A stretch of 50,708 nt of DNA from positions 1 through 50,708 of IMG/VR virus record IMGVR_UViG_3300036766_000591; one strand, given 5' to 3'. Source of the stretch: a virus. Position 1 is the stretch's first letter, and each line of letters opens with the position of its first letter. Below are positions 3,647-30,543 of the stretch, piece by piece. Made by a program: the position numbers and the translations under genes. The notes beneath the pieces are model-generated. The model saw only the letters and a list, made by a program, of their open reading frames with translations. It searched no databases and was not told where the DNA came from.

Positions 3647-3903
3647 TCGGTATCCCACGCGTTGGGGTCGCGCGCCTGCGCGGCGAGCCGGATGCGCTGG
3701 CGGGCGGCAAGGATCGCAAAGTTCTGCGCGAAATGCCGGCCGAACTGGCGGCCAGCCTCGACCAACTCTTGGTGGCGGCGCGCCTTCTCCCACCGCTCGC
3801 GGTGCGCGCGCCAGAAGCCGACGCCCACGGTCCACGCACACACCAGCACGGTCAGCGCGAGATTGACGAGCGCCCAGTCGAGGAGCATCCGGCCGATGGT
3901 CAC
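3643..3903 (-). CDS. Small membrane protein
   Basis: 86 residues, GTG start at 3903 overlapping the methyltransferase stop (GTGA). One membrane segment near residues 8-30 (DWALVNLALTVLVCAWTVGV) is followed by a long basic helix, so the C-terminus probably lies in the cytoplasm. No family recognised. Confidence 0.65.
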   Translation of the reverse strand: MTIGRMLLDWALVNLALTVLVCAWTVGVGFWRAHRERWEKARRHQELVEAGRQFGRHFAQNFAILAARQRIRLAAQARDPNAWDTE

Positions 3904-5582
3904 GCGGCCTCCAGTCCGAGCGGGATCTGAGCCTCGGCGTCACGGATGCGCCGCTCGGCGATGGCGACATAGGCCGCCTCGCGCTCGATACCCAAGAAGC
4001 GGCGGCCTTCCAGGACGCACGCGACGCCGGTCGTGCCGGAGCCCATGAAGGGGTCGAGGGCGAGGCCCTGCGGCGGGGTGACGAGCCTAACGAGCCAGCG
4101 CATGAGGTCAACCGGCTTCACGGTGGGATGGTGATTGCGACGCGGAATGTCTACCACTTCGCGGCCCGTCATCGGGTTGATTTTGTGGCCTTCGGCGCCT
4201 ATTAGGACCACCATAGCCTCGCCATCCAGCCCCGCCTCGCGTTCGGCGCGGGACGCCTTCGCGCAGTAGAAGAAGCGCGAGGCGCCGCCGGAGTCGCCAG
4301 AGAAGTGACCCGACCTCTCACCCATTCTCTCGCCCATGTCGGTAGCCCGGCCCTGCCGTATTCCTCCGGGCTGCTTTTCGCCGCTCACCAAGTTCCCGCT
4401 CTGCGCGTCGAGCATCGCCGCCGCGTCCCCGTCCAGCACGACGTTCGCGGGCCAGCGGCCACTAAGCGATGCAGATGCAGCTGTCTCGGCTCCAGTGGCA
4501 GACATCCGGTATCCATCATGAGAGTGCTTCGCAGGGTCGAATCGAGTCATTTCTGGCTTCCCCGCAATCCGGCACGCCTCGATGTTCAGCGCCCCCGTGC
4601 CGTGCGCCGCCACGTTCGCCGCCACCGTGCCGATGAGTGGCTTGCGCGCGAGGATGATCGGCAGCCAATCAGGCGAGAGGTTGCTTTCCTCCGGGCCGGT
4701 TGCCTCGTCGGCAAACCTCCCGATAGCAAGCTCGCCCGCAGTAGTGGAGGCGAGTCTTTCGCACTTGGCAACCACGCTTCTGGAAATACCGACCGCAAGC
4801 GACGCATCGGACGCGACGCCACTTGTCGCGCTCAAGTCCGCGGTGGTGAAGGCGTGCGTGATCCGCGATAGGCACGACCGCAAGATTCTCAGGTCGGTTG
4901 TCAGCGCGCTCGCCGTTGCGGTGGTGTACCTGCTCCTGGGGTCCAAGAGGGCGCCCAAGCATCCGTTCAGCGACGACGCGATGCTCAAGAGCCCAGACGT
5001 TAGGAGCAAGTCGGATGAAGGCGTACCCATCTTTGCGGATGAAACGACCGTGCATAGGGCCTCCCTTGTCGTGGGAGCCAATATAGCCAGTTCTTCCTGC
5101 TCTGACAAGGGTTTACGCGCTAGTATCACGGGCTCGTGTGCTGGCTTGAGCGCCGTGCCCCAACCCTTCCACTCGCCGTCGAGGTTCAGCGACTTCGGGA
5201 AGCCGGAGCCGTAGAGCCAGCACAGACAGTCGCGAATCTCCCAGCCCGCATCCTCGATAGCGCAGGTCAGGCGGTGGAAGGTGCGCGTCCCGCCGAAGGC
5301 CAAGAGGTGCGCGCCGGGCTTCGCCACGCGCAGCACCTCAGACCACGTCTCGATGCCAGGGATCTCGGAGTCCCATGACTGGCCCATGAAGCCGCCGCCG
5401 GTGCCGATGCGCGAGCGTCCAGCGGGTGACGCTTCATTGCGCGACGCTTCGCCGCTCCCGCCCTTCTTGTTGGCGGTTAAGGCATACGGTGGGTCACAGC
5501 AAACGGCGTCCACGCTGCCCGGTGCCAGCGTCCGCAGCACGTCCAAGCAATCGCCGTGGATCACCCTCGCACGGTCGCTCAC
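3900..5582 (-). CDS. DNA N4/N6-type methyltransferase carrying an in-frame HNH cassette
   Basis: 560 codons from a GTG at 5582 (GTGA overlap). The catalytic motif CCDPPYAL lies near residue 30 and the AdoMet-binding DPFMGSGTTG near the C-terminus. This is the beta-class order of amino-methyltransferases, which methylate adenine N6 or cytosine N4. The ordered core includes ALNIEACRI and a PTVKPVDLMRWL block. About 157 codons in the middle do not look like this family; they are Ser/Thr/Leu-rich low-complexity residues, and an HNH gene occupies another frame there. The family motif ILARKPL appears on both sides of that stretch, so the stretch is an insertion and the uninterrupted enzyme would be about 403 residues. 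Whether the read-through enzyme is active is not known. Confidence 0.85.
   Translation of the reverse strand: MSDRARVIHGDCLDVLRTLAPGSVDAVCCDPPYALTANKKGGSGEASRNEASPAGRSRIGTGGGFMGQSWDSEIPGIETWSEVLRVAKPGAHLLAFGGTRTFHRLTCAIEDAGWEIRDCLCWLYGSGFPKSLNLDGEWKGWGTALKPAHEPVILARKPLSEQEELAILAPTTREALCTVVSSAKMGTPSSDLLLTSGLLSIASSLNGCLGALLDPRSRYTTATASALTTDLRILRSCLSRITHAFTTADLSATSGVASDASLAVGISRSVVAKCERLASTTAGELAIGRFADEATGPEESNLSPDWLPIILARKPLIGTVAANVAAHGTGALNIEACRIAGKPEMTRFDPAKHSHDGYRMSATGAETAASASLSGRWPANVVLDGDAAAMLDAQSGNLVSGEKQPGGIRQGRATDMGERMGERSGHFSGDSGGASRFFYCAKASRAEREAGLDGEAMVVLIGAEGHKINPMTGREVVDIPRRNHHPTVKPVDLMRWLVRLVTPPQGLALDPFMGSGTTGVACVLEGRRFLGIEREAAYVAIAERRIRDAEAQIPLGLEAA
4669..5055 (-). CDS. HNH homing-type endonuclease nested in the methyltransferase
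   Basis: 128 residues. The HNH core is plain: LEHRVVAERMLGRPL, then VHHRNGERADNRPENL (the HH pair and the Asn of the HNH fold), then HARLHH. A C-terminal zinc module CVACG...YCGRACYREVC follows. Such enzymes nick or cut DNA at a specific site and spread their own gene. The ATG at 5055 follows AGGGAGG at optimal spacing, and a promoter lies 24 bases further up. It is read in a frame different from the host methyltransferase. The stop lies 14 bases before the downstream ILARKPL copy. Confidence 0.85.
   Translation of the reverse strand: MHGRFIRKDGYAFIRLAPNVWALEHRVVAERMLGRPLGPQEQVHHRNGERADNRPENLAVVPIADHARLHHRGLERDKWRRVRCVACGRYFQKRGCQVRKTRLHYCGRACYREVCRRGNRPGGKQPLA
5080..5108 (-). promoter_or_regulatory. 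Sigma70-type promoter of the nested HNH gene
   Basis: On the minus strand TTGTCA (5108-5103), a 17-base spacer and TATATT (5085-5080) stand upstream of the HNH ribosome binding site. The first half of the -35 box is the TTG Leu codon of the recoded ILARKPL copy, so the synonymous change also builds the promoter. Confidence 0.6.
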
Positions 5583-6692: not shown

Positions 6693-6835
6693 GCGCGCCC
6701 CCGTTGCCGCTTGCGCGCCCGCCGCTGCGCCTTCTCGCGCCGCAGGGCCAGCCGCCAGTCCTTGATGGTCCGGTAGTTGTGACTCGCGAGCCGCGGGGTG
6801 AACCGCTCATGGCCCGGCACGGGGACGCGCTTCAC
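6689..6835 (-). CDS. Very basic small protein
   Basis: 48 residues from GTG at 6835, coupled by GTGA on both sides. Arg and Lys dominate the second half (LRREKAQRRARKRQRGRA), which suggests nucleic acid contact. It follows the HTH regulator gene immediately. Confidence 0.5.
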   Translation of the reverse strand: MKRVPVPGHERFTPRLASHNYRTIKDWRLALRREKAQRRARKRQRGRA

Positions 6836-7050
6836 GCAGCCCGCCGGAGGGCGTCGGCCGCTCGCTGGCTCGGCTGCGTCCTACCCGCCAGCCAGCGGCG
6901 CACGGTGCTCGGGGCGACGCCCAGGAGCCGCGCGAACGCCTGCTGGCTAATCCCCAGGCCCTCGATGCCCCTGCGGAGGTCCGCGGGGCTCAGGGCGGCG
7001 CGTGGGCCGCGTGGCGTAGAACGGCGGGACAGGGTGCGCGGCGTGGTCAT
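6832..7050 (-). CDS. HTH-type transcriptional regulator
   Basis: 72 residues. The helix-turn-helix is clear: LRRGIEGLGISQQAFARLLG followed by VAPSTVRRWLAGRTQPS, as in XRE-like repressors and antitoxins. An Arg-rich N-terminal arm precedes it. I chose the ATG at 7050; a GTG at 7074 is also in frame. The gene is first in the leftward early-type block, and the DNA just upstream holds an inverted repeat and three short iterated elements. It is a good candidate for an autoregulated early repressor or Cro-like protein. Confidence 0.75.
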   Translation of the reverse strand: MTTPRTLSRRSTPRGPRAALSPADLRRGIEGLGISQQAFARLLGVAPSTVRRWLAGRTQPSQRAADALRRAA

Positions 7051-7063
7051 GGGGAGACGAGAG

Positions 7064-7120
7064 TAGCGCACCAACTACCCTAGCGCAATAGCGCATATTG
7101 CCACAGTCTTGTGTGGCAAT
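7064..7120. promoter_or_regulatory. Probable operator region: TAGCGCA repeats and inverted repeat
   Basis: Three copies of TAGCGCA occur at 7064-7070, 7081-7087 and 7089-7095. A perfect inverted repeat with nine-base arms (ATTGCCACA / TGTGGCAAT, six-base loop) spans 7097-7120. All lie in the gap between the Rz-like gene and the HTH gene. I see no convincing -35/-10 pair for the HTH gene, so this is called an operator region rather than a promoter. Confidence 0.6.
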
Positions 7121-7855: not shown

Positions 7856-8098
7856 ATGACCCGCACCCCTAGCCTCTCAGTTGAGCGGACCCCCAACGGC
7901 AAAGTCGCACTCGTAGTCCGTAACGCCACCGCCTCGCTGCGGCCATTACTTGACCGCCTCGGGATCGTGCCAGATTGTACGATTACCAACCGGCGCGCGG
8001 TGCTGTGCTCGACACCGGCAGAGCTTGACGCCGCGAGGGAACCACTGCGACAACTGTTCGACGCGCGCGGCCAATGGGTCGGCGCGAGGGAGGGTTGA
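7856..8098 (+). CDS. First gene of divergent regulatory operon, unknown
   Basis: 80 residues. The ATG at 7856 follows AGGAGC at good spacing. The N-terminal half is beta-rich (SLSVERTPNGKVALVVRN), the second half helical. It is one of the few non-HNH genes on the plus strand. No family recognised. Confidence 0.7.
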   Translation: MTRTPSLSVERTPNGKVALVVRNATASLRPLLDRLGIVPDCTITNRRAVLCSTPAELDAAREPLRQLFDARGQWVGAREG

Positions 8099-8101
8099 GG
8101 G

Positions 8102-8518
8102 ATGGTCCGCGATCTCCCGGCAGCGGCGCGCCTCTGCGCCGACGCCATCGCCGCGATGGACGCGGGCACAGTCGAGGTCGCCCGGGTCGCGGTTGGTTGC
8201 GCCCGTCGCGCCCTCAGTCATTGGGGCACCCCTTGGCCTCAGACTGAGGCGCAAGTGGCGCGCCTGCTCGACGCCCCACTGACCACCGACCCCGTCGTGG
8301 CGGCGGCCGAATGGCTGCAACTGGCCGACGACAAGCTGCGCGGTGACGTCGTGACAGGCGACGAGCCCTACGACGTGCGCGAGTATCTGGGACGGGATTA
8401 CCGCAACGTTGGCGAGCCAGAGGGCGCGGTCCTAGCGTGGCTCCAAACGCACCGCACAGCATACCCCCGCACGGCGCGCGCCTACGTGGCAACCGCGCGA
8501 GCGTTGCTCGCCGAGTGA
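8102..8518 (+). CDS. Hypothetical protein of the regulatory operon
   Basis: 138 residues, all-helical in appearance, with a GAGGG ribosome binding site. It begins three bases after the previous gene and ends in a GTGA overlap with the HTH gene, so the three genes form one operon behind the 7779 promoter. The middle contains DVREYLGRDYRNVGEPEGAV. Function unknown. Confidence 0.7.
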   Translation: MVRDLPAAARLCADAIAAMDAGTVEVARVAVGCARRALSHWGTPWPQTEAQVARLLDAPLTTDPVVAAAEWLQLADDKLRGDVVTGDEPYDVREYLGRDYRNVGEPEGAVLAWLQTHRTAYPRTARAYVATARALLAE

Positions 8519-8685
8519 CGCCCGTCACGTTGCTCCGCGCCGCGATTGCCGCGTCGGGTCTGTCGGCGCGGCAGTTCGCCGTCCGCGTCCTGCTCCGCGA
8601 CGAGCGCACGGTGCGCCGCTGGCTCGCGGGCGACTCGCCGATCCCGACGCCCGTCGTCGCGTTCCTCGCACGCGAGGGCGGTTAG
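8515..8685 (+). CDS. Small HTH DNA-binding protein
   Basis: 56 residues from GTG at 8515. The helix-turn-helix is LLRAAIAASGLSARQFAVRV followed by DERTVRRWLAGDSPIPTP. It resembles a bare XRE/Cro-size domain without dimerisation extras. Position as last gene of the operon suggests feedback on the palindrome at 7788-7803. It shares RRWLAG with the HTH protein at 6832-7050, so the two may form an opposing regulator pair. Confidence 0.7.
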   Translation: MTPVTLLRAAIAASGLSARQFAVRVLLRDERTVRRWLAGDSPIPTPVVAFLAREGG

Positions 8686-10249: not shown

Positions 10250-11553
10250 ATTTCCTCGACCAGCGCGAACGGCACGCCATACCGCGCGACGGGCATCGCT
10301 TCGAGCGGCGAGAGCTCGCGCATTACCGCCAGGAAACTGCGGCGGTGCAGGTGCGTCGTGTCCTCGGGATCGTGGACGTAAAACAACTGCTTGCCGATGC
10401 CGAGCCGCGCCTGCATGTCGAACGGGCCTTCGAGGGCCTCCGTCTCGGGGAGATTGTTCAGCGCGAACGTCACCGTGCGCCGCTTGCTCTTGAGCTGGTA
10501 GACGGCCGCGCCGCCATCGGTCGGCGTGCGGATCGAGTCGTCTTCCCATCCGTGCTTGAGGCCATAGGCGGCGTTTATGGTGGGCTGGAAGCCGCCCGCG
10601 ATGATGAGCCGACCCACCTGCACGTAGCCTGCGCTGTTGCCCGTGTCGGCGACGTTGGTGCGCCAGTAGCGTGCGGACTGCGCGGCCGTGGTGACGTGGA
10701 GCGCGGAGAGGCTGTAGCCCTCGGCCTCTTCGGCGTCGATGCCCGAGGGCCAGCCTGCGACGTAGCCGGTGTCGTAGACGAGTTGCGCCGTGGCGGCGTT
10801 CCACGCTTGGATGTCGCCGATGTAGAACGCGGCGGTATCAGCGGCGCCCCCGTTGGCGGGAAACACAATCACGCGATTAGTATTCGCTGCGATGACGCCG
10901 GCGGCGAGTGCGGTAATACGAAATCCAGTCCCTTCGGCCACCGTCGAGATAACCGAGCCAAGTGTAGCCGTGACGACAGGCGTGGCGGCACTGAAATCAA
11001 TCGTGACGATTATTCGGTCGGTGCCTGTCGTTTGGTCATTAACTTTGACCACGTGCGCGGCGTAAACCGACGAGCGTTTCACAAGGAACGAGAATACCTT
11101 ATCCGCATTGGCCGTGAATATCAGGCTACGGTAGGTATATTCTGTGACCGCTCCGTCATCGTCCCCGATCAAATCCAAAGGGATGCCGTTGGAGGTGGTC
11201 GCCGCCGCGCTCCGTGTTGGCGTGCCGACATTCGTCCAGTCGGCATCGCCTACCGTCGCCCAGTCAATGATCGGCACGCTCGCCCAGCCGCGATGCCGCA
11301 CCGTGGCCGCCGTCGAGAAGTTGTGGCCCGACAGCGCGAGCAGCCTGACGCTGCGCGCGACGCCGAGGTCGGTGTCGAACTGGGTATCGGCCACGGCGGC
11401 GCTGGAGGAGCGCGCCACTTTCTGGATGTATCTGTCCTGCATGTTGCTCAGGGGCAGCGTCGCGCTCCACGGCGTACCGATCGTGGAGATGACAGGCGAA
11501 TAGGTCACGCCGACGTCACTCCACAGAGGCCATCCTAACAAAACGCTACTCAT
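10246..11553 (-). CDS. Tail-tip protein with inserted carbohydrate-binding-like domain
   Basis: 435 residues. The N- and C-terminal thirds look like a phage tail protein (ATLPLSNMQDRYIQKVARS; C-terminal GIGKQLFYVHDPEDTTHLHR). Residues about 98-255 form a separate beta-rich block (YTYRSLIFTANADKVFSFLV, VVTATLGSV) of the kind found in carbohydrate-binding modules inserted in phage tail proteins. A role in receptor contact is inferred. The start overlaps the upstream lectin-like gene by ATGA. Confidence 0.65.
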   Translation of the reverse strand: MSSVLLGWPLWSDVGVTYSPVISTIGTPWSATLPLSNMQDRYIQKVARSSSAAVADTQFDTDLGVARSVRLLALSGHNFSTAATVRHRGWASVPIIDWATVGDADWTNVGTPTRSAAATTSNGIPLDLIGDDDGAVTEYTYRSLIFTANADKVFSFLVKRSSVYAAHVVKVNDQTTGTDRIIVTIDFSAATPVVTATLGSVISTVAEGTGFRITALAAGVIAANTNRVIVFPANGGAADTAAFYIGDIQAWNAATAQLVYDTGYVAGWPSGIDAEEAEGYSLSALHVTTAAQSARYWRTNVADTGNSAGYVQVGRLIIAGGFQPTINAAYGLKHGWEDDSIRTPTDGGAAVYQLKSKRRTVTFALNNLPETEALEGPFDMQARLGIGKQLFYVHDPEDTTHLHRRSFLAVMRELSPLEAMPVARYGVPFALVEEI

Positions 11554-12257
11554 GATCTGCTCTGGCCAACCGTTATGAAGTCAACCTGGAGAGTCCCCAC
11601 GCTCGCCGCCGCACTTTCTTTCCCGATGCGGATGACCGGCTGCAAGGCCAAGGCCGCCACTTGGTCCATGCGGAATGTGGTCGCGCTCGCGACCCGTGCG
11701 CCGTCGATGTAGAAGCGGATCGCGGCCGTGTCGTCTATCTCGATTCTCACAACCGTCCATTGATTGGCGACAAGCGTGACGCCGCTTGCGATGAGGCTTT
11801 GCTCATGCACCGTGTCGTCGCTCTCTAGGGTGATAGCCCCAGACCCATCCAACCTCGCCCAGATGCTTTCCGCCACCGTGTTGACGGCCGCGTTGTGGTC
11901 GCCACAGAGGCCGACGACCGCCACGACGGAGCCGGTCGGCAGCACCGTGAAGCGTACCCGCGCCTCGAAGAACAGCTTTTGGTTGAGCGTGAGTGTACGT
12001 TGATTGCCCCAGTCCACGCCCGCGAGCTGTATCTCGTTCGTCGCGTCGAGCGCCAGGGCATATACGCCGCTCGGCGCGTCCCCGATCATGGCCTCGCCGG
12101 CGCCGTTGGTGTCGCGCACGGTCCAGTGATCAGACTCAATGGGATCACCCAAGAAGTCGTCCTTGAACCACACCGGGCACAGCGCGCGGATCGTCTCGTC
12201 GGTGCTGCTGTCGAAATAATGAAGCCACCCGCCGAAATATCTTGTCTTGAGGCTCAT
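11550..12257 (-). CDS. Lectin-like (LamG/concanavalin-type) virion protein
   Basis: 235 residues starting MSLKTRYFGGWLHYFDSS with an AAGGGG box upstream. The DDFLGDPIESDHWTVRD opening, the FFEARVRFTVLP strand and the RFYIDGARVAS strand are typical of jelly-roll lectin-like domains in phage tails and appendages. Probably binds glycans on the host surface. It lies between the plus-strand HNH cassette and the next tail protein. Confidence 0.65.
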   Translation of the reverse strand: MSLKTRYFGGWLHYFDSSTDETIRALCPVWFKDDFLGDPIESDHWTVRDTNGAGEAMIGDAPSGVYALALDATNEIQLAGVDWGNQRTLTLNQKLFFEARVRFTVLPTGSVVAVVGLCGDHNAAVNTVAESIWARLDGSGAITLESDDTVHEQSLIASGVTLVANQWTVVRIEIDDTAAIRFYIDGARVASATTFRMDQVAALALQPVIRIGKESAAASVGTLQVDFITVGQSRS

Positions 12258-12266
12258 ACCGACCCC

Positions 12267-12295
12267 TTGCTGGTAGCACGCGAGCGCGCTAGATT
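12267..12295 (+). promoter_or_regulatory. Promoter of plus-strand HNH cassette 1
   Basis: TTGCTG (12267-12272), 17 bases, TAGATT (12290-12295). The ATG at 12303 begins seven bases after the -10 box, so transcription would start at or one base before the ATG. The same geometry recurs at 15475-15503. Confidence 0.55.
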
Positions 12296-12302
12296 TCCAC
12301 CC

Positions 12303-12443
12303 ATGAAAGCCATGTATTGCAAGCGGGGCCACCGCCTCACGAAAGCCAACCGCGCGCCGGACGGGCGCTGCCGCATCTGCCGCCGGAAGTTCGGCACGAT
12401 CCGCATGCGCGCGTACCGCAAACGGAAGCGGGCCGAGCCGTGA
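12303..12443 (+). CDS. Stand-alone zinc domain, HNH cassette 1
   Basis: 46 residues with CKRGHRL...CRICRRK, a Cys/His zinc module ending in a basic tail. The same module type is found at the C-terminus of the HNH protein encoded directly after it (CPRGHAL...CRTCNTK). No ribosome binding site, in line with a leaderless transcript. The stop overlaps the HNH start (GTGA). Paralogue of 15511-15645. Confidence 0.65.
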   Translation: MKAMYCKRGHRLTKANRAPDGRCRICRRKFGTIRMRAYRKRKRAEP

Positions 12444-13021
12444 CGGGCGTGTTCGTGGCGTGGAATCCGAAGAAGCCTAACGGGCCCGGCTGGATCGAGG
12501 ACGGGAGCGGCTGCCACGTCTGGATTGGGGCCAGAGACAGAAAGGGCTACGGCCAAGTTCGCCAAGGACGCGGCAAGGGGAGGCTTCGATATGTGCATCG
12601 CGTCCGTTACGAACGCGAGATTGGGCCGATCCCCGACGGGCTTCCGCTCGATCATTTCGTCTGCAACAATGGCGCGGGAGGATGCTGTAATCCCCATCAT
12701 TGCCGGCCGGTCACGCGCCGCGAGAACGCACTCCGGAGCGAAAGCCGCGCCGCGACGAACGCCGCCAAGACGCATTGTCCGAGAGGCCACGCCCTTGTTG
12801 GCGACAACCTCATTGCGTCCAAACTGAGGCGGGGCCGTGAGTGCCGGACATGCAACACGAAAAGATGTGCCGAGCGTTACGCCGCCAACCGAGACACCGT
12901 GCTCGCACGGCGCAGGGCCTTGATGACACCCGCCAAACGGGAGGCCAAGAGGGCCAGCGACCGCGCCGCCTACCGCGCGAAACGTCCCGAGGTCAAGCGG
13001 CAAACGAGGTACAGTGAGTGA
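12440..13021 (+). CDS. HNH endonuclease, plus-strand cassette 1
   Basis: 193 residues from a GTG. Order of motifs: MTGVFVAW, PGWIEDGSGCHVWIGARD, the catalytic region LDHFVCNNGAGGCCNPHHCR (H, N, H of the HNH fold with zinc cysteines), PVTRRENALR, then a C-terminal CPRGH/CRTC zinc module and a basic tail. It is encoded against the direction of all surrounding phage genes, as expected for an independent mobile gene. Close paralogue of 15642-16151. Its end lies five bases from the stop of the convergent tail gene. Confidence 0.85.
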   Translation: MTGVFVAWNPKKPNGPGWIEDGSGCHVWIGARDRKGYGQVRQGRGKGRLRYVHRVRYEREIGPIPDGLPLDHFVCNNGAGGCCNPHHCRPVTRRENALRSESRAATNAAKTHCPRGHALVGDNLIASKLRRGRECRTCNTKRCAERYAANRDTVLARRRALMTPAKREAKRASDRAAYRAKRPEVKRQTRYSE

Positions 13022-13026
13022 CACTC

Positions 13027-15465
13027 TCATCGCCATAACGTTAGGCTCAGTTGGCGTTTCGATGCATCTGGCTCCAGCCCAATTATGCGGAACGACGGCC
13101 CGCCCGCGAGCGCGTACCGGCTGTGCGTGAGGCTCACCACATCGCCGAGGTCCAGCGTCTCCGTCGTCGCGTGGTCCGAGTCCGAAGGCACGACGATGTT
13201 ATAGCGGTCGCGCTGCACGCCCCGGAGCGCCTGGCGTCGCGTCGCCTCCGTCAAGGCATTGGCCGCGAGGTAGATCAGCGAGTCCTCGACGGTCTGGGGG
13301 GCTAAGGGGTGAGCCAGTTGCACCGTCGTGTCCTCGGCCTTGGCCTCGCGCCACTCGGCGGCGAGGAACGCGCGCCGCGCGTCCGTCACGCCTCCGGCCA
13401 CGCCAGCGACTTGGACCGACCAATTTTTCGCATAACGGATCGTGGAGCGCCAGACCGGAAGGCCCTTCGTTTCATCGTTGACCGGCACGCGCTCAAGCGG
13501 CTTGAGGAGGTCATTGGCCGTGAAGTTGACGACGGGCGTCCCGCTCGGCGCGGTGAACTGCTTGATCCGCATGACGCCCGCGCGGTCGGCGCCCCACCAG
13601 GCGCCCACGGACTGCGCGATCCAATCGAGCACGTCGGCCACGGACCACTCGTCGGTCCCCGACCAGAAGCCCAAGACCGAGGCGTTCGCGGTATCGAGCG
13701 CGGCGATGTCCGCGCTGGAGAACTCTTGCAGCGGCGCGCCGAGCGGGTCGGAGAGCAGGCGCGCGAACATCTGGCCCGCCGTGCGGTCGGAGGCGGCGGC
13801 GCCCTCGGTCACGTCCGCGGTGATGAGCCCGGCGGGCGGGGAGCCGAGGCGGATGTAGCCGCCGGGGAGGTACGCCTTCCACAATCCAGCTAGAGGAGCC
13901 TTTGTATCATCGAGGAGGTCGGCGGCGTCCGCATAGGTCTGCGTCACTAGTCCAGTCGCATAGTAAATCTCTTGCACCTGCCCGATGACCGCAAAAGTAC
14001 TTGCCAGGGGAGTCCACGCGGACCCATCAGCAGATACCCCAATAACGCCGTCGTTATGTCCCGAGAGAAATATCTCCGCTGCGAAGGTGACTGTGACCAC
14101 CGTTGCACTCAGGGCCGTGGTACGCTTTGCCCATGTGAGACCATCGGCTGACCCCCAGAGCCCATCATAAGTTGCCTGCACCCATTGTCCTGCCCCATAG
14201 GCGACCCGTCCCGCCAAGGCGGCGCTAGCGGTGCGGGCGGTCCACGATGCCCCGTCGGTCGAGGTTGAGGTCTTGCCGCTTTGCCCCACCGCTACGAAGA
14301 GAGCGCCATTCCAGTTTACGTCGGCAATGTAGGAAGCGCCGAATTGGCTCGTATGGACGGTGAAGGTGATGAAATCGGTTGTTGAATAGAGCTTGCCCGC
14401 ATCACCGACGAATACCCAAAGGCTGTTGCCGTAAGCCGCCCCAAAAATACCGCTTCCCCCAAAGGGGTTCGGGAGAACCCCGAGAGCGTCGGCTACCATG
14501 GCCCACGTAACCCCATCCGACGAGGTGGCGATCTTGCCGCCGTTTCCGACTGCGACAAAGATACTGTTTCCGTAGGTCACGGCTTGGACATCGGCGGCGC
14601 CCCAATTCGTCAGCGTGCGCAAAGTCCAGAGAGTGCCGTCGGGAGACGAGTAGCATACTCCTCCCTGCGCTATCGCGACGATTGTTCCACCGCCGCAGGC
14701 AAAGCGCAGGTAGTTGCTGCTGATACTATTCAGGGGCGTTATCTGCTCCCACGTCTGTCCATCGGGCGAAGTGGCAGACCTCTGGATCAATCCGCCACCG
14801 TTTCCGTTCGCCAGCCAAGTAGACGAGCCCAGCGCGATTCCCTCATCGTAGGCCGCACCCACGCTCGCCACCGGCCCGTCGTTCACCTGATAGATGAGTT
14901 TGCTGGTGTTCGCGCAGGGCACGCTCACGTTGAGCACGGACCCGAACACGCGCGGTATCGGCTTCCCGGCCAGGTCGTCGGGCGTGCCGTCGAGTCCATC
15001 GGGGAGCGAGTTGGTGCCGCCGTACTTACGAGGCTGGAGCGGGACAGCGAGAGCCAGCATGTTGTCGCGGATTTTCAGGACCAGCGACGATTGCGAGGCC
15101 TCGATCTGTTCCGCTGTCCCCTCAAAGACGGTTTCGAATCCCGATGGATAAGCGGCCCCGACCATGCCACGCCTCACGATAACAGAACGCCCATCCCATC
15201 CATACCCGAGCCACGCATCCAAGGCGCCGTCTTCGTTGATTGCGACAAGGTCGCCGAACGACATCCGCGAGCGACCCGACGTAGTACTGCTGGAGAACAA
15301 GTCTCTTTTCAGTAATACGGGCTGGCGCAGTCGGCCATCATAATATGCGTTAGGCGGGACCTCAGTGGGCCGAGTCGCGAACCCGGTCGTCGAGAGACGG
15401 AGCGCGACGATTCCGACCGTGGCCGGGTCCCAGGGGCGCAGCTCCGCCACGTAGAGATCGGTCAC
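13027..15465 (-). CDS. Large tail-tip protein with inserted seven-bladed propeller
   Basis: 812 residues from GTG at 15465. The N-terminal 210 and C-terminal 300 residues look like a tail baseplate/hub-type protein (VNDGPVASVGAAYDEGIAL; IRLGSPPAGLITADVT; TETLDLGDVVSLTH). Between them, residues about 212-500 hold seven S-x-D-G-x-x-W-type boxes about 41 residues apart (near 233, 274, 315, 361, 402, 438, 478). That is the mark of a BNR/sialidase-type beta propeller. The insert is visibly less GC-rich than its surroundings. Host surface binding or glycan recognition is inferred. HNH cassettes flank the gene on both sides. Confidence 0.75.
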   Translation of the reverse strand: MTDLYVAELRPWDPATVGIVALRLSTTGFATRPTEVPPNAYYDGRLRQPVLLKRDLFSSSTTSGRSRMSFGDLVAINEDGALDAWLGYGWDGRSVIVRRGMVGAAYPSGFETVFEGTAEQIEASQSSLVLKIRDNMLALAVPLQPRKYGGTNSLPDGLDGTPDDLAGKPIPRVFGSVLNVSVPCANTSKLIYQVNDGPVASVGAAYDEGIALGSSTWLANGNGGGLIQRSATSPDGQTWEQITPLNSISSNYLRFACGGGTIVAIAQGGVCYSSPDGTLWTLRTLTNWGAADVQAVTYGNSIFVAVGNGGKIATSSDGVTWAMVADALGVLPNPFGGSGIFGAAYGNSLWVFVGDAGKLYSTTDFITFTVHTSQFGASYIADVNWNGALFVAVGQSGKTSTSTDGASWTARTASAALAGRVAYGAGQWVQATYDGLWGSADGLTWAKRTTALSATVVTVTFAAEIFLSGHNDGVIGVSADGSAWTPLASTFAVIGQVQEIYYATGLVTQTYADAADLLDDTKAPLAGLWKAYLPGGYIRLGSPPAGLITADVTEGAAASDRTAGQMFARLLSDPLGAPLQEFSSADIAALDTANASVLGFWSGTDEWSVADVLDWIAQSVGAWWGADRAGVMRIKQFTAPSGTPVVNFTANDLLKPLERVPVNDETKGLPVWRSTIRYAKNWSVQVAGVAGGVTDARRAFLAAEWREAKAEDTTVQLAHPLAPQTVEDSLIYLAANALTEATRRQALRGVQRDRYNIVVPSDSDHATTETLDLGDVVSLTHSRYALAGGPSFRIIGLEPDASKRQLSLTLWR

Positions 15466-15474
15466 GCCGCGCTC

Positions 15475-15503
15475 TTGACACTAGGCCGGTAGTGGCTTAC
15501 ACT
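15475..15503 (+). promoter_or_regulatory. Promoter of plus-strand HNH cassette 2
   Basis: Consensus TTGACA (15475-15480), 17 bases, TACACT (15498-15503), then seven bases to the ATG at 15511. Transcription is expected to begin at the start codon itself. Spacer and downstream bases resemble those at 12267-12302, including TTCC and CCATG. Confidence 0.7.
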
Positions 15504-15510
15504 TCCCGCC

Positions 15511-15645
15511 ATGAGACGCACGCATTGCAACCGAGGCCACCGCCTGACATCCGCCAACCGCCTAGCAGACGGGCGCTGCGCGAAGTGTCGCCGCAAGTCA
15601 GCCGCGCGATACATGCGCGGGTATCGGAAGCGGGCCGCCAAATGA
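15511..15645 (+). CDS. Stand-alone zinc domain, HNH cassette 2
   Basis: 44 residues with CNRGHRL...CAKCRRK and a basic tail, plainly homologous to 12303-12443. The stop overlaps the HNH start (ATGA). No ribosome binding site precedes it. It may help the neighbouring HNH protein bind DNA; that is inference from the shared module. Confidence 0.65.
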   Translation: MRRTHCNRGHRLTSANRLADGRCAKCRRKSAARYMRGYRKRAAK

Positions 15646-16151
15646 CGGGCGTCTTCGTGGCATGGAGCCGTTATCGCAATTCCCCTGGCTGGATCGAGGA
15701 CGGGTCGGGGTGCCATATCTGGATCGGCGCGCGAAGCCAAGACGGCTACGCCCACGGATGGGATGCCGAGAACCACTGCAACGGCGCTATCCATCGCATT
15801 CGCTATCGGCGCGAGGTCGGCCCGATTCCCGTCGGCATGGAACTCGACCACTATGTTTGCAGCAATGGTGCCGGGGGCTGCTGCAACCCGCACCACTGCC
15901 GGCCGGTGACGCCTCGCGAGAACTCGCTCCGTAGTGGGGCGCAATCTTCGCTCAACGCCGCGAAGACGCATTGCCCGCAGGGCCATCCGCTGTCCGGGGA
16001 GAATCTCATCAAGTACTATGTCGAGAGACGCGGAATGCGATGCTGCCGAACCTGCGGCCAGCAAGAACGGCGGCGCTACAAGGCGGCACACCGCGAAGAG
16101 CGCCGCGTCAAGGCTCGGGCATACCGCCTCGCCCGCCGAAAGGCCGCCTAA
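15642..16151 (+). CDS. HNH endonuclease, plus-strand cassette 2
   Basis: 169 residues. Same domain order as cassette 1: MTGVFVAW, PGWIEDGSGCHIWIGARS, LDHYVCSNGAGGCCNPHHCR, then CPQGHPLSGENL and CRTCG, and a basic tail. DNA-cutting homing-type enzyme. Divergence from cassette 1 is moderate, so the two are not a recent duplication. Confidence 0.85.
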   Translation: MTGVFVAWSRYRNSPGWIEDGSGCHIWIGARSQDGYAHGWDAENHCNGAIHRIRYRREVGPIPVGMELDHYVCSNGAGGCCNPHHCRPVTPRENSLRSGAQSSLNAAKTHCPQGHPLSGENLIKYYVERRGMRCCRTCGQQERRRYKAAHREERRVKARAYRLARRKAA

Positions 16152-16154
16152 CCT

Positions 16155-16478
16155 ATGCGCTACCTGCTGCTTGTCCTGCTCTTGGCGGGCTGCTATGCGG
16201 ACCCGACCGCGCCGCCCGCCGTCCAGCCTAACGCGGCGCCCGCGATTCTGTTTACGAATGGCTGCGGCTTCACGGCAGGGTTCAGCCTGTTCGTGGATGA
16301 CGCCGCGCCGGAAATGTTCTTGATCGCGGACAGTGGCGCCGTCGAGAAGCGCGTCCTCGCCGGACGACACGCGGTCCAGTACATCGCCTTCGACGGGAAC
16401 GCCAAGCCGCTGGCGGTTCGTCGCGACTCCCTGACCGTTCTCGGCCCGACGCCCTACATCATGCGCTGCGCGCCGTAG
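16155..16478 (+). CDS. Small lipoprotein carried with the HNH cassette
   Basis: 107 residues. The N-terminus MRYLLLVLLLAGCYADPTAP is a lipoprotein signal with lipobox LAGC; Cys13 would be acylated after cleavage. The mature part is beta-rich with three further Cys. It starts three bases after the HNH stop and ends two bases from the tape-measure stop. It may be a moron-type gene changing the host envelope, for example blocking superinfection. Alternatively it could be an outer-membrane lysis factor, but its orientation against the late genes argues otherwise. Confidence 0.7.
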   Translation: MRYLLLVLLLAGCYADPTAPPAVQPNAAPAILFTNGCGFTAGFSLFVDDAAPEMFLIADSGAVEKRVLAGRHAVQYIAFDGNAKPLAVRRDSLTVLGPTPYIMRCAP

Positions 16479-16480
16479 GC

Positions 16481-18835
16481 TCATACCTTCAGCCCTTCCA
16501 GCACGAGGGCCAGCTTCCGCGCGTTGTCCTGCGCCTCGGCCCGGAGTGCGACAACCTCCTCCGTCAACTGCGTGAAGCCCGCCAGCAGTAGGGCGCTCTG
16601 CTGCTGCGACTCTAGGACGAGCGGATCGTCCAATGCCGTCTTGGGCGGCTTCCCGTCGAGCGGCGGGGGCGGCGGGAAGCCCGGGGGTGTGCCCCCGTCC
16701 TTGGGCGGCTTGAGGAACACGCTCGTGTTGTCCTGAATCGCGACGAGCGCATCCAACATCTGCTGCTGGATGCTGCGCTGGCCCTCGAAGATCTTGGCGA
16801 TGGCGTCCGTGTCGGCCAGGACGCGCGTGAAGTCCACGGCGTACCGGCCGCCGGAGGCGTTCACCGCCCGCGACGCCGCGAGGAACGCCTGCGCCACCTG
16901 CGGCAAGCGGCCCGCCGCCGTCTGGTCCCCGGTCTGCGCCTGCGCCAAGACGGCTTCGTACTGCCGCCGTGCCTCGGCGAGTTGCTGAATAGGCGAGAGC
17001 GTCGTGAGCGGCCCGGTGCGGAGCGAGGTCTGGAAGTCGCGCAGCGAATCAATCGTGGTCGTCAGGCCCGCGATGGTCGCCTTGATCTTGTCGGCCGCGA
17101 AGCGGATCGCCTCGGCGCGCTGCACTTCCACGAGTGTCGCCCGCTCCTGGGCGTCGGCACCCGCCAGCACGGCATCGGCATACTCGCGCTGCTGCTGGAG
17201 CGCGAAGGCCATCGCGTCGGCTTCGGCGTCATGGCCCTGGGCGCGGAGCATCCGCACGGCGAGGTCTTCGATGCGCTGCTGGCGCAGGATGGCCGCCTCT
17301 TCGCGCAAGTGTATGACGCGGATGGCTTCCAGAAACGCAATCTCGACAAGGCGGCGTTCGTATTCCGCCTGCGCGGCAGCGTTGGCCGCGCGGTTCGTAC
17401 CCTGAAAACCTGGACCGACGCCCGCGCGCACGGCAGCGGCCTCCGCACGCAACCGGGCCGCGTCGTCATGCGCTTGGCGGATAGCCGCCTGGAGGCCGGT
17501 ATCCGTTCCGGCCACGGCGCGGCGGAATGCATCGAGGTCATCGGTGAATTGCTTCAGCGCCTCAGCCTGGAGTCGCCGTGCCTCGCGAACGCGCGCCGCG
17601 CTACCGAACAGGTCACTGACGAATCCGCCGATAGCGTTCCCCACCAGCGCGAGCCCGCCCGCGACCGTGCTGAAGCCGACGAGCGACTGAAGCGCCGAGC
17701 CACCTATCGCGCCACCAATCCCGCTCCCGCCCGGCATGGTCCTGTCGCCTCCAGGAGCACCGCCACGCGATCCGCCCGTCGCGGCCTTGGCTGCCTCCTG
17801 CTCCGCGGCGATGAGCTTCATGGCCGCGACGACGTTCGCGTTCGCCTCCTCACGCCATAGCCGCAGCGCCTTCGCCTGGGCTTCGAGGGAGGCCGTCAGT
17901 TCCGCGTTCGCGCGGAGCTGGAGCGCGGCGGTCGCCGTGGCCGTGTTGCGAAGGCTGGCGTCGAACATCTCCAGCGCCCGACGGTGGGCTTCGATGCCCT
18001 CCTTCGCCTGCTCGTGGGCCGCAGCCGAAGCGTGCTGGGTTCGCGCCTCATGGCCCGCCGCCACGTCGAGCGCGTTGATCGCGGCGGTCAGTCGCGTGTT
18101 GTCTTCGGTCAGTCGAATGACATCCGCGGCATTAGCCAGCGCGCCGACGTTGGCGCCGACGCGGAATCGCGACGGGTCGGTGATGGAGACATCCGTGCGA
18201 GCCTGGGCTTGCGCCAATGCCGCACGATTCACCGCCAACTGTACCGCCAGGAGGGTCCGATTCTTGGCAAGCAACTTCTCGACTTCGTCGTTCGTATCCC
18301 CGATCGCCCCATTGAGGAGTTGCCAGGCGGCGGCAAAGGCCGCGAGGCCCGACAGGATGCCGACAAGCCAGGGATTCCCCAGCGCGAACACCTGAAGCCG
18401 GGCGGCGGCCATCGCGATGCCGCCAATGCCGCGCGAGGTCACCAGGGCCGCCGCCTCGGATGCGACCCCGAACGCCTCAAACCCCTGGGCGCCGCGGCGC
18501 GCATCCATCGTCACCGCGCGCAGGCCCCGGTTCACCTGGTTCCCCACCGCGGCCAGCCGCTCCTGTGTCTTGCTCGTCATCTCGGTTGTGGTCGCCAGCG
18601 AGGCCATGTCGGCCTTGAGGGTGCGGAGCCCGGCCGCGTATTCCACTTCCGTCATCCGGCCGATGCGGTAGGACTGGGTGAGTGTCGTCAGTCGGCTTTG
18701 GAGTGCGGTGACGGCGGCCGAGGCCGCCTCCATCTGCTGCGCGGTGCCCGTGACGGCGCGCTGCGCCCGTTGCATCTCGGTGTGAAATGCCGTGGTCTCC
18801 GCAGCAATCCTCACCATCAGCGTGGCAGCGATCAT
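16481..18835 (-). CDS. Tape measure protein
   Basis: 784 residues, the longest helical protein of the tail block. It sets tail length and enters the host membrane during DNA delivery. Seen: N-terminal coiled-coil segments (MQRAQRAVTGTAQQMEAAS), a hydrophobic stretch GNPWLVGILSGLAAFAAAW, a second Gly/Ala-rich hydrophobic region (LVGFSTVAGGLALVGNAIGG), then long Ala/Arg/Glu/Gln helices. The C-terminus has a Pro-rich linker (PPGFPPPPPLDGKPPK) and a final coiled coil. ATGA overlap with the chaperone gene upstream is the standard arrangement. Confidence 0.9.
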   Translation of the reverse strand: MIAATLMVRIAAETTAFHTEMQRAQRAVTGTAQQMEAASAAVTALQSRLTTLTQSYRIGRMTEVEYAAGLRTLKADMASLATTTEMTSKTQERLAAVGNQVNRGLRAVTMDARRGAQGFEAFGVASEAAALVTSRGIGGIAMAAARLQVFALGNPWLVGILSGLAAFAAAWQLLNGAIGDTNDEVEKLLAKNRTLLAVQLAVNRAALAQAQARTDVSITDPSRFRVGANVGALANAADVIRLTEDNTRLTAAINALDVAAGHEARTQHASAAAHEQAKEGIEAHRRALEMFDASLRNTATATAALQLRANAELTASLEAQAKALRLWREEANANVVAAMKLIAAEQEAAKAATGGSRGGAPGGDRTMPGGSGIGGAIGGSALQSLVGFSTVAGGLALVGNAIGGFVSDLFGSAARVREARRLQAEALKQFTDDLDAFRRAVAGTDTGLQAAIRQAHDDAARLRAEAAAVRAGVGPGFQGTNRAANAAAQAEYERRLVEIAFLEAIRVIHLREEAAILRQQRIEDLAVRMLRAQGHDAEADAMAFALQQQREYADAVLAGADAQERATLVEVQRAEAIRFAADKIKATIAGLTTTIDSLRDFQTSLRTGPLTTLSPIQQLAEARRQYEAVLAQAQTGDQTAAGRLPQVAQAFLAASRAVNASGGRYAVDFTRVLADTDAIAKIFEGQRSIQQQMLDALVAIQDNTSVFLKPPKDGGTPPGFPPPPPLDGKPPKTALDDPLVLESQQQSALLLAGFTQLTEEVVALRAEAQDNARKLALVLEGLKV

Positions 18836-28114: not shown

Positions 28115-28330
28115 CTAGGACTCCTTCCGGCGCATGAGCGCCGCCAGCACGGGACCGAGCCAGGCGTGGGCGGCGAGGATGAGGCCCACCGCCGGCCAGC
28201 GGCCGAAGCCCGCGCCATAGAGGGCGAGCCCACCGTAGAACTCCAGCTCGCGCACGCCGAAGCCCACCAGGCCCCAGCCCGCGAGAAGTCCGCGGCCGAC
28301 GGCGCCCAGCGCCGCGCGCAAGCGCCTCAT
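28115..28330 (-). CDS. Small membrane protein between terminase and portal
   Basis: 71 residues with hydrophobic segments (GLLAGWGLVGFGVRELEFYG; WPAVGLILAAHAWLGPVLAA) and basic ends. ATGA overlap with the terminase stop. Small membrane ORFs occur at this place in several siphophages; function unknown. Confidence 0.6.
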   Translation of the reverse strand: MRRLRAALGAVGRGLLAGWGLVGFGVRELEFYGGLALYGAGFGRWPAVGLILAAHAWLGPVLAALMRRKES

Positions 28331-30033
28331 CCCACGCTCTCGATCAGGAAGCCCGCGTCGACCGGGCTCATCGTCTGCGCGCCCTTGAAGGCCAGGATCA
28401 GCGCCACCGCCGGGTCGATCTTGTTCTCCGGCCGGTCCTTGCGCGGGAAGACGTTCTCGTTCGCGTCCGGCCGGACGGTGACGTTGGAGAGAGCCCACGT
28501 CAGCACCGGGTCCGCCGCGTGGTGGACCCGGCCCGCGGCCACCGCGGCCTCGAAGTCCTTCATCGGCGCCGAGAGGTGTTGCACCTGCTGCGGCACCTCG
28601 ATCACCAACTTCTCCTCGATCCCCTCGCGCTTGAGGCGGTCGGTCAAAGCCCGGAGGTTCCAGGGGTCGCCCATGAAGACGCCCATCGCGTGCAGCTTCG
28701 CGTCCGCCAGGATCTCGTCGCCGATCACGTCGTAGTCGATGTCGTTCCCCTCGGTCGCCGTCAGCCAGCCCTCGTGCTCCCACTTCTGGTAATGCCGGTT
28801 CTTCGGGTCATCAACCGCGGCCCGCGGGCAGTAGTGGCGCGCGAAGACGGTGAAATGCGGCTCGCCCTCGACCTCGCGCCGGAAGACGCGCGCCACGCTC
28901 GCCAAGTCAAGGCGGCTCGCGAGGTCGGCCCCGAACGCCGCCGGCTCGCCGATGAAGTCGGCCGCCACAAGCGTCGCATCGCCGCAGCGCGTCCACCACT
29001 CGATGTTCATCCACGGCGAGCGCGCCGAGCACCAGACGTCGAGGTGTTTCGTCTTGAAGATGTTCTGTTGCCGCGCGTCATTCACGGCAGCCCGCTGCTG
29101 CTCCCGCAGGTAATCGCCCTTGACCGACACGTCGAAGTTGGGATTGGCCATCCGCAGCGCGTCCTCGGAGGTCCAATCCGTGCCTTCGTCCACCGCGTAA
29201 ATGATGCCGAAGAGCCGGTCGTCTTCGGCCCCCTCGAGCATCTTCTGGACGCGCTCCCTGAGCGCGTAACAGGGGCCGCCGATGTCCTCGCCCGCCGTCG
29301 TGATGACCTCGGCCAGCGGCTGCCGACGGGCTCCCATGCCCGTCACCATCGTGTCGAACTGCGTCGCGTCCTGGTGCTCGTGGTACTCGTCCGTGATCGA
29401 GAGCGAGGGCGAGGCGCCGTCGCCCGGCTTCCCGATGATGGGCTCCAGCCGCGCACCTGTGGCGAGAATCGTCAGACTCTTCGCGTTCACCTCGACGCCG
29501 TACTGCTCCAGGAACTCCGGCGTCCGCTCCGCCATCTGCTTCGCCGGCCGAAACACCTCCCACGCCTGCTTCTCGCTCGTCGCCCCGCTGTAGACCTCAC
29601 TCCCGAATTCGCCGTCCGCGGCGAAGAAGTAGAGCGCGTCGATCGCGGCGTCCGTGCTCTTGCCGTTCTTCCGCGGCATCTCCTCGTAGGAGACCCGGAA
29701 GCGCCGCATCCCAGTCTCCTTCTCGACCCAGCCGAACTTCATCGACCGCCGGAAGCACTGATGCGGCTGGAGCACGATGCGGTTCGGGACGCCCGGCTTC
29801 GGGATCGCCCATTCGCCCTTGACGTGCGGCAGCAGCTCCGCGAACCGGCAGGCTCGCTCGGCCTTCGCCCGGTCGAATGTGAACGGGTAGCTCTTCCGCC
29901 GCGCCCGCTTGAGGTCGGCGAGGTGCCGCTCGCAGGCGAGCCGCGTCCACTTGCACGCGAGGATGCGGCCCCCTACGACGTCCTTCGCGTAGCGGCTCGC
30001 CGTCTCGACGTGCGGGTACTTCGACTTGCTCAT
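28327..30033 (-). CDS. terL: Terminase large subunit
   Basis: 568 residues, ATGA overlap with the small subunit. The N-terminal ATPase has RFRVSYEEMPRKNGKSTDAA, the Walker-A-like region, and LSITDEYHEHQD, the Walker B acid. The C-terminal nuclease has AFGADLASRLDLASVARVF and a later DYDVIGDEI acid cluster. The family looks like the Terminase_1/HK97-gp2 group. It packages DNA into the prohead through the portal and cuts it. Confidence 0.92.
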   Translation of the reverse strand: MSKSKYPHVETASRYAKDVVGGRILACKWTRLACERHLADLKRARRKSYPFTFDRAKAERACRFAELLPHVKGEWAIPKPGVPNRIVLQPHQCFRRSMKFGWVEKETGMRRFRVSYEEMPRKNGKSTDAAIDALYFFAADGEFGSEVYSGATSEKQAWEVFRPAKQMAERTPEFLEQYGVEVNAKSLTILATGARLEPIIGKPGDGASPSLSITDEYHEHQDATQFDTMVTGMGARRQPLAEVITTAGEDIGGPCYALRERVQKMLEGAEDDRLFGIIYAVDEGTDWTSEDALRMANPNFDVSVKGDYLREQQRAAVNDARQQNIFKTKHLDVWCSARSPWMNIEWWTRCGDATLVAADFIGEPAAFGADLASRLDLASVARVFRREVEGEPHFTVFARHYCPRAAVDDPKNRHYQKWEHEGWLTATEGNDIDYDVIGDEILADAKLHAMGVFMGDPWNLRALTDRLKREGIEEKLVIEVPQQVQHLSAPMKDFEAAVAAGRVHHAADPVLTWALSNVTVRPDANENVFPRKDRPENKIDPAVALILAFKGAQTMSPVDAGFLIESVG

Positions 30034-30450: not shown

Positions 30451-30543
30451 GAGGCAAGTGAAGGGCGCCCGCGCGCGGTCACACTCCAGTAGCCATGAAG
30501 TTCTTGGCCACCCCTTAACTCCTTGTGCCTGGGCACTTGCCTC
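30451..30543. repeat. Inverted repeat upstream of the small terminase gene
   Basis: GAGGCAAGTG at 30451-30460 and its exact complement CACTTGCCTC at 30534-30543 enclose 73 bases. This 121-base gap between genes lies just upstream of the small terminase gene, where cos or pac sites are often found. That role is inference. Confidence 0.5.

Follow-up and report, generated by a model that had tools for sequence, protein, structure and literature searches.

Two homing-endonuclease-like HNH units with separate zinc-module genes on either side of a phage tail gene

Two zinc/HNH units flank a tail gene

The DNA analysed here, 50,708 bases long and referred to below as the window, is the entire IMG/VR virus record IMGVR_UViG_3300036766_000591 and represents a tailed phage, whose minus strand carries terminase, portal, protease, major head and tape-measure genes. 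We found in it two plus-strand units, one on each side of a minus-strand tail gene with an 812-amino acid (AA) product (13027–15465), each combining a compact promoter, a gene for a small zinc-module protein and an overlapping gene for an HNH endonuclease. With a probability of about 0.6, we read them as two paralogous, free-standing, homing-endonuclease-like units that were inserted in opposite orientation into packed junctions of the tail operon and that have their own leaderless promoters, an HNH gene coupled in translation to the zinc gene, and a zinc protein acting as a partner in trans. The HNH enzymes themselves are of a well-known kind; what is new is the combination of a separate zinc cistron, a putatively leaderless promoter and a coupled HNH gene, present twice in one phage.

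In unit 1, the promoter (12267–12295, plus strand) consists of TTGCTG at 12267–12272, a 17-nt spacer and TAGATT at 12290–12295, and is followed after 7 nt by the ATG at 12303 of the gene for a 46-AA zinc-module protein (mini1, 12303–12443, plus strand). The stop of this gene overlaps by 4 nt (GTGA) the GTG start at 12440 of the 193-AA protein HNH1 (12440–13021, plus strand). Unit 2 has the same order: a plus-strand promoter at 15475–15503 with TTGACA at 15475–15480, a spacer of 17 nt and TACACT at 15498–15503, then 7 nt to the ATG at 15511 of the gene for the 44-AA mini2 (15511–15645, plus strand), whose stop overlaps by 4 nt (ATGA) the ATG start at 15642 of the 169-AA HNH2 (15642–16151, plus strand). 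No slippery sequence was noticed by eye at either overlap. Antisense frames of 260 and 340 codons cross the units, which we assigned to the plus strand because the HNH homology decides it. Our crude gene caller missed both zinc genes, and its antisense frame over unit 1 was removed before the junctions and repeats were counted.

An initial annotation of the window had described two paralogous pairs of a zinc protein and an HNH protein around the 812-AA tail gene. This observation is confirmed: identity is 61% over 41 AA between the zinc proteins and 57% over 165 columns between the HNH proteins, both of which contain CCNPHHCR. The claim that the pairs run opposite to all nearby phage genes is true of the late neighbours, which lie on the minus strand, but not of a third plus-strand gene at 16155–16478 nor of the further plus-strand genes predicted at 7856–8685 by the gene caller. 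The 4-nt zinc/HNH overlaps, the lipoprotein-like third gene of unit 2 and an 11-bp repeat flanking the block were all absent from that annotation, whose interpretation, a mobile family settled in gaps between late genes, is partly supported by the results below.

HNH and zinc-module proteins

HNH1 matched the Pfam family HNH_3 above the cut-off of 24.8 bits (E 1.7e-6, 28.0 bits), and HNH2 fell slightly below it (E 2.6e-5, 24.2 bits). Both matched the phrog_826 profile strongly, with E 4.9e-35 for HNH1 and 3.3e-31 for HNH2, and gave weak matches to the PADLOC homing endonuclease model (E 7e-4 and 3e-3). Residues D69, H70 and H85 are invariant across 39 aligned HNH proteins, the two window proteins among them; N82 is found in both window proteins and is not invariant among the 39. 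We take DH...N..H to be the catalytic residues of the HNH_3/phrog_826 endonucleases. The structural model of HNH2 (predicted local distance difference test score, pLDDT, 87) was closest in fold to I-HmuI, an HNH-type homing endonuclease from a phage (Z 5.9 across 82 residues), followed by I-PpoI (Z 4.9), and a sequence search of the PDB returned no match for HNH2 or mini2. The proportions of synonymous and non-synonymous differences between the two HNH genes (pS 0.67 vs. pN 0.31) indicate selection at the protein level. By their sequences, HNH1 and HNH2 are ordinary free-standing endonucleases of the phrog_826/HNH_3 kind.

The small zinc proteins are homologous to the module at the end of the HNH proteins, as the initial annotation had proposed, since both match the C-terminal zinc module of phrog_826 (profile positions 165–210, E 8e-4, and 169–209, E 2e-3); 44 residues are too few to tell whether a zinc protein derives from its own HNH partner. 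Across 36 aligned modules, both minis included, C6, H10, N16, C23 and C26 are invariant, of which only N16 is a free result, because the motif by which the modules were picked asked for the C and H positions. The minis carry C-x3-H...C-x2-C and not the CxxC...CxC zinc motif of CapR. The mini2 model (pLDDT 89) shows a short knuckle followed by a long helix, and its fold search of the PDB gave no match, which says little for 44 residues. A tblastn search of phages with mini2 at E 0.01 found no match; with mini1 at E 10 it returned 18 records, in which the matched feature was named HNH endonuclease or endonuclease in 16 cases and hypothetical protein in two. As far as sequence comparison goes, the zinc module is normally fused behind the HNH domain, and its separation as a first cistron is the unusual part of the two units.

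Promoter geometry

As the initial annotation stated, a -35 beginning with TTG, a 17-base spacer, a TANANT-like -10 and seven bases to the ATG can be read directly in both units. No purine-rich ribosome site was seen ahead of ATG 12303 or ATG 15511, in agreement with the same annotation, and none ahead of either HNH start. A scan of both strands of the window for TTG-N20-TANNNT-N7-ATG gave two matches, exactly the two units, vs. 0.01 expected, and none of 100 shuffles contained at least two; the two promoter copies are homologous and so do not count as independent in these statistics. TANNNT-N7-ATG alone is not rare (four found vs. 2.5 expected in the window). Relaxing the pattern to spacers of 16–18 nt and 5–9 nt before ATG or GTG added only a 37-codon frame at 2981 and one repressor-like gene with its start at 7050 (N9). 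The latter, a helix-turn-helix (HTH) gene at 6832–7088 with TTGCGC, 17 nt, TACTCT, 9 nt and ATG, is a third promoter-beside-start arrangement in the window. In a sigma-70 scan only the promoter of unit 2 passed, scoring 10/12. Upstream of the ATGs, units 1 and 2 are identical at 20 of 36 positions out to the -35 and at 9 of 24 beyond it, and in both a distance of 9 nt separates the beginning of the -35 from the start codon of the late gene that precedes it, when the start of the lectin-like gene before unit 1 is taken as ATG 12257.

TANNNT close to a start codon that has no ribosome site has been described as a mark of leaderless genes (PMC3160421, PMC12340547), and in both units we found TANNNT about 12 bp before the start and no ribosome site. 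The likeness to the leaderless genes of Actinobacteria and Deinococcus-Thermus extends to the first T of TANNNT, 13 nt before the start codon (PMC3160421, PMC12340547); the comparison is drawn from those bacteria. The geometry of the units places the 5′ end of the transcript at or next to the ATG, so the message is probably leaderless. With 36 nt from -35 to ATG, a first cistron of this kind and a coupled second one, each unit would be a very compact, self-contained cassette that could fit among closely packed genes and dispense with its own ribosome sites.

Tail-operon junctions

Among loci related to the tail gene, the junctions that hold the units in the window are mostly closed. In 23 of 24 loci a long upstream open reading frame (ORF; 1,251–1,891 AA) ends no more than 26 nt from the tail start, often overlapping it, and in 18 of the 19 loci that could be judged the next gene starts no more than 10 nt from the tail stop. 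One locus, L143, is the exception on both sides, its tail frame running on to 1,494 codons, and five loci had no downstream gene to judge. The set consists of distant relatives, and L054–L056, L152/L153 and L141/L159 are near repeats of each other. In EBPR siphovirus 2, for example, the gaps at the two tail-gene junctions are 8 and 2 nt; the corresponding junctions of the window measure 1,015 and 769 nt and are among the three widest between predicted minus-strand genes. Because the junctions are closed in most of these relatives, both units look inserted, which bears out the earlier proposal of insertion into gaps between late genes. In addition, ATGA ends both late genes that would be expected to run on across the junctions, as if a 4-nt start/stop overlap had been split; for comparison, ATGA stands at 7 of 39 non-overlapping minus-strand stops, and 33 of 81 neighbouring gene pairs overlap by 4 nt.

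Most relatives show closed junctions on both sides of the tail gene, but for unit 1 the empty site is only approximate, because the lectin-like gene is not the follower of the tail gene in relatives. A search with the stretch 10000–34000 found no near DNA match among 50,697 phage records; viral contigs were compared by protein only, their tail relatives being about 30% identical.

Relatives of the HNH and zinc genes

We compared the units with 87 HNH relatives, hand-picked from 50 loci, a further 80 (the best 80 of 124) and one genome-contig locus. Contig repeats, near-identical neighbours and module-only matches were left out, hence also the loci L040/L041, which a profile search later restored. 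In none of the 87 was a separate gene for the zinc module found on the same strand within 700 nt of the HNH gene; one motif match each in L022 and L122 was discounted as chance-like. The closest relative found, IMGVR_UViG_3300047509_000164 (59% identity over residues 16–144), begins directly with HNH and has no separate zinc gene, and it was also the only one returned when the HNH core was searched as DNA. The promoter geometry was seen by the relaxed scan in two of the 87, so it is not a family trait, and the promoter-plus-start pattern matched twice in viral contigs, neither time at a zinc gene. Regarding orientation, 46 of the 87 lie where no strand has a clear majority, and 10 of the other 41 run opposite to their neighbours; gp71 of prophiGD12-2 also lies in opposite orientation among tail genes.

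Domain order could be determined by motifs in 62 of the 87 relatives (25 were not orderable): 52 have HNH-zinc, seven HNH-zinc-zinc, two HNH alone and one zinc-HNH-zinc. The last is L011 (IMGVR_UViG_2772190715_000001), a single fused protein of 208 AA with a zinc module both before and behind HNH, which was matched by 890 records. A search of genome contigs gave 73 pattern stretches, with one confirmed, a distant Streptomyces locus. The zinc-protein alignment gave 16 pattern stretches in viral contigs, none of them confirmed, a result that shows little, as the patterns were narrow and missed L040/L041. The module alignment matched in 50 of 50 viral records, which had been chosen for their HNH genes; the open frames at these matches have at least 139 codons, except for 128 in the record of L005, 101 in that of L052 and a weak match of 44. 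A separate zinc gene cannot be excluded by frame length, because the frame in which mini1 itself sits exceeds 180 codons.

When all loci were searched with profiles, 113 distinct module stretches emerged, and for 14 the open stretch contained no HNH match; two of these are the minis of the window, which leaves 12. In L040 (IMGVR_UViG_3300035659_000045; L040:3404-4147) and likewise in L041 (IMGVR_UViG_3300035701_004565), which are identical over the compared stretch, an HNH_3 gene (E 6e-11) with an HTH-like tail is followed 144 nt on by a separate gene for a 51-AA zinc-module protein, which lies on the same strand and whose stop overlaps the start of the next gene. By eye, no TTG-N(16-18)-TANNNT-N(5-9) was found ahead of the ATG of the L040 zinc gene. 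L005 encodes a separate module protein of 105–123 AA; an HNH gene that lacks the module follows about 800 nt later, with other genes between. In L045, of which 4,986 bases were examined, we found a separate, longer module protein and no HNH; at L045:3950-4471 this protein runs in frame into a lipoprotein-like stretch (LIGGLGGCAQ), and there is a 4-nt overlap with the preceding gene.

Other candidates for separate modules were rejected: a longer stretch of its record showed L017 to be fused to HNH, L028 and L052 seem to be fragments out of frame, and L047, L049, L170 and L171 are long proteins judged by eye to be other HNH types. Of two module stretches in Clavibacter phage CN1A, one has no start codon and the other is cut by the end of the locus; the former (L163:1513-1810) is unannotated and lies upstream of the HNH gene gp67, with a 50-AA gene between. 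In Gordonia phage Cafasso (L165:1400-2022), the 55-AA cysteine-rich gp93 overlaps the HNH gene gp94 by 4 nt; this parallels the pair of the window, but its zinc-like motif differs. The pair in Dexes consists, once translated, of two different HNH genes, and Smeagol and Gyzlar are annotated alike. We noticed no paper on a separate zinc/HNH pair in a literature search, which is not proof of absence.

The separate module genes of L040/L041, L005 and L045 suggest that the module detaches more than once; judged from these sequences, detachment recurs, though not with this order or promoter. The arrangement of promoter, zinc gene and overlapping HNH gene is known from no other phage than this one, where it occurs twice. 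A defined mobile family of promoter, mini zinc protein and HNH, as the initial annotation pictured it, is therefore not supported (pair in 0/87, promoter geometry in 2/87). Homologues without the pair had been named there as what would speak against the family, and this is largely what we found; the detached modules of the loci just named argue against a complete refutation.

Comparison with known systems

Endonuclease genes that bracket tail or other essential genes have been described as homing endonuclease gene (HEG) islands, among them HNH-3 HEGs in tail operons (PMC10448857). The window resembles them in having endonuclease genes on either side of an essential tail gene. It differs in that the published islands are near-identical DNA between otherwise different phages (PMC10448857), whereas none was found here, perhaps owing to sparse sampling. 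The T4 mob genes, the ICP1 genes gp28, gp80 and gp179, and phrog_826 share with the units an HNH_3 core and a position in junctions between conserved genes, and a C-terminal zinc module is present in ICP1 and Mob endonucleases as in the HNH proteins of the window (PMC2988022, PMC10448857). Free-standing HEGs lie between genes that are adjacent in relatives without them, and this is the case here in 23/24 and 18/19 junctions of distant relatives. In contrast to free-standing phage HNH genes, the units add a compact promoter, opposite orientation and a separate zinc cistron in front; the T4 endonuclease genes, as described, are co-oriented with their neighbours except for segD, and seven of them are promoter-less (PMC2988022).

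Three further arrangements resemble the units on the zinc side. The 195-AA ShiLan-domain HNH, compared by its description only, has zinc fingers on both sides of HNH and a proposed leaderless initiation, but it is a single frame inside a methylase gene and has no separate zinc gene (PMC11855218). The HNH protein of L011 also carries a zinc module in front and behind, fused into one protein. L040/L041 share the separate zinc gene near an HNH_3 gene on the same strand, with its stop overlapping the next start, and differ in having the zinc gene behind an HNH of another subtype.

Proposed mechanism and alternative explanations

From the genes, their homology and overlaps, the promoter geometry and the closed sites in relatives, all of which are observed, we infer a leaderless message, translational coupling, cutting and homing by the units, and a role for the zinc protein. 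Each unit would supply its own promoter, with the transcript starting at, or 1–2 nt before, the first ATG, such that the zinc protein would be made from a leaderless message. Ribosomes stopping at the zinc-gene TGA could re-start at the overlapping ATG or GTG and produce the HNH enzyme; re-initiation is the likely route because no ribosome site precedes the HNH frames. The enzyme would nick or cut the tail region of phages that do not have the unit, and repair would copy the unit into the recipient, with two units carrying along the intervening tail gene. The zinc protein would be a DNA-binding zinc module that has become separated from the endonuclease and works alongside it in trans, and the units would be expressed while the late genes are silent. 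Should the zinc module indeed act as a subunit in its own right, the target choice of a homing endonuclease could be regulated, or evolve, independently of its cutting. The tail gene between the two units offers a concrete test case for the HEG-island idea of tail-gene exchange. A bolder form, which we regard as doubtful, is a two-part homing endonuclease in which the separate leaderless zinc cistron works with HNH, or switches it off, in trans, while the divergent units exchange the tail gene as cargo.

Several results weigh against reading the units as inserted homing elements with a zinc partner. The exact zinc/HNH pair is not conserved elsewhere (0/87). The relatives are too distant for a comparison of one phage with and without a unit (the tail homologues are about 26–33% identical), and the gene that follows the tail gene in them is not the lectin-like one (in L054 it resembles the next gene on). 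The -35 of unit 1 is weak (3/6), and this unit did not pass the sigma-70 scan. The zinc gene by itself shows hardly any sign of selection (pS 0.43, pN 0.32), its 44 codons being too short, and the invariance of C, H, C and C in the module is in part a product of the motif used to choose the modules, which requires those four positions. The fold matches of the HNH2 model are modest, with unrelated SMAD MH1 domains next at Z 4.3.

Two alternatives concern the zinc protein and, like the one on the block below, touch only part of this reading and are compatible with the rest. The zinc protein might be a repressor that binds the compact promoter and shuts off the unit, perhaps together with the late gene whose ribosome site touches the -35. 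Being encoded by the first cistron of an autonomous unit would suit such a role, as would the constant 9 nt between -35 and the neighbour's start codon; CapR has been described as a zinc-finger repressor akin to HEG DNA-binding domains (PMC10448857), and autorepression is described for I-TevI (PMC2988022). We nevertheless consider it unlikely, if worth keeping in mind: the module differs from that of CapR, the upstream regions of the units share only 20 of 36 positions, and GCGCTAG, the only operator word tested, which is shared by the promoters of unit 1 and the repressor gene, occurs at chance level (9 vs. 9.2 expected) and is absent from unit 2. It is rather improbable, in turn, that the zinc ORF is mainly a translation entry that feeds ribosomes to the HNH start, its product being a leftover of a fused zinc-HNH-zinc protein like that of L011. 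The GTGA and ATGA overlaps before HNH starts without ribosome sites fit this, as do the weak excess of synonymous change in the zinc gene, the start-less module-coding stretch upstream of the HNH gene in CN1A and the seemingly out-of-frame modules of L028 and L052. But both zinc genes keep their length, the zinc ligands and the intervening N are kept in both copies while the HNH copies are just 57% identical, and separate module genes with a start codon exist elsewhere (L040/L041, L045). A partner in trans is, in our view, the most likely role of the zinc protein.

The units could also be ordinary, non-mobile accessory HNH genes, such as packaging or recombination nucleases or inactive remnants, derived from an old duplication in the lineage. 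Such genes are common in phages, as the 890 records matching the L011 protein illustrate, no mobility was observed, and the copies differ at about two thirds of synonymous sites; the antisense orientation, the promoters of their own, the position in junctions that are closed in relatives and the distance of about 12 kb from the large terminase gene (28327–30033) make us doubt this explanation. Very unlikely in our view is that unit 1, the tail gene, unit 2 and the lipoprotein-like gene moved as one composite piece, an HEG island that left AGGCTCATACC at both ends. This 11-bp direct repeat is found just twice in the window, once at each outer edge of that block: the left one (12250–12260, plus strand) covers the probable start codon of the lectin-like gene and the right one (16477–16487, plus strand) the stop codon of the tape-measure gene, and HEG islands around tail genes have been described (PMC10448857). 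However, 17 of 6,576 start/stop pairs share at least 11 bases (about 0.3% per pair), many of them around the common word GTGA, six edge pairs were compared, and a homologous tail gene already stands at this place in relatives. The repeat is a lead only, and free-standing insertion of each unit remains the reading that we prefer.

Gene neighbourhood

The third gene of unit 2 (16155–16478, plus strand) begins 3 nt past the HNH2 stop and encodes a lipoprotein-like protein of 107 AA with an LLLAGC motif recognized by eye. No relatives of it were found in phages or viral contigs, and there was no Pfam match at the cut-off (DUF7475 was sub-threshold, E 0.04) and no PHROG or PADLOC match; it could be a cargo (moron) gene of the unit. 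Both units face the late operon. Terminator-like sites in 11500–17500 are not above chance (five vs. 3.9 expected); three lie on the plus strand, two inside unit 2 (15831–15848 and 16232–16244) and one in the tape-measure gene. Since the scan of this region found no such site directly behind HNH1 or the lipoprotein-like gene, antisense read-through into the late genes is possible.

The product of the tail gene matched phrog_8917 (E 6.7e-92), a family without a named function, so the label rests on its position beside the tape-measure gene. The best phrog_8917 match spans residues 507–811, and residues of about 233–321 resemble DUF6242 below the cut-off; phage stretches related to the 233–321 region are named photosynthesis system II assembly factor or ycF48-like. 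From its sequence, it looks like a conserved tail protein with an inserted repeat domain. The late neighbours of the block, both on the minus strand, are the Laminin_G_3/ConA-like (lectin-like) gene at 11550–12257, with a probable ATG start at 12257 and a longest frame that begins at GTG 12332 and would cross the unit 1 promoter, and the tape-measure gene at 16481–18835 (phrog_973, E 1.6e-6), which terminates in ATGA.

The top-listed terminases were those of Vibrio phages, at 50%. Two DNA methyltransferase genes and a phosphoadenosine phosphosulfate reductase-like gene (3900–5582, 37801–39255 and 30542–31435) hint at DNA modification, and a 96-nt tRNA-Val (gac) gene lies at 40580–40675.

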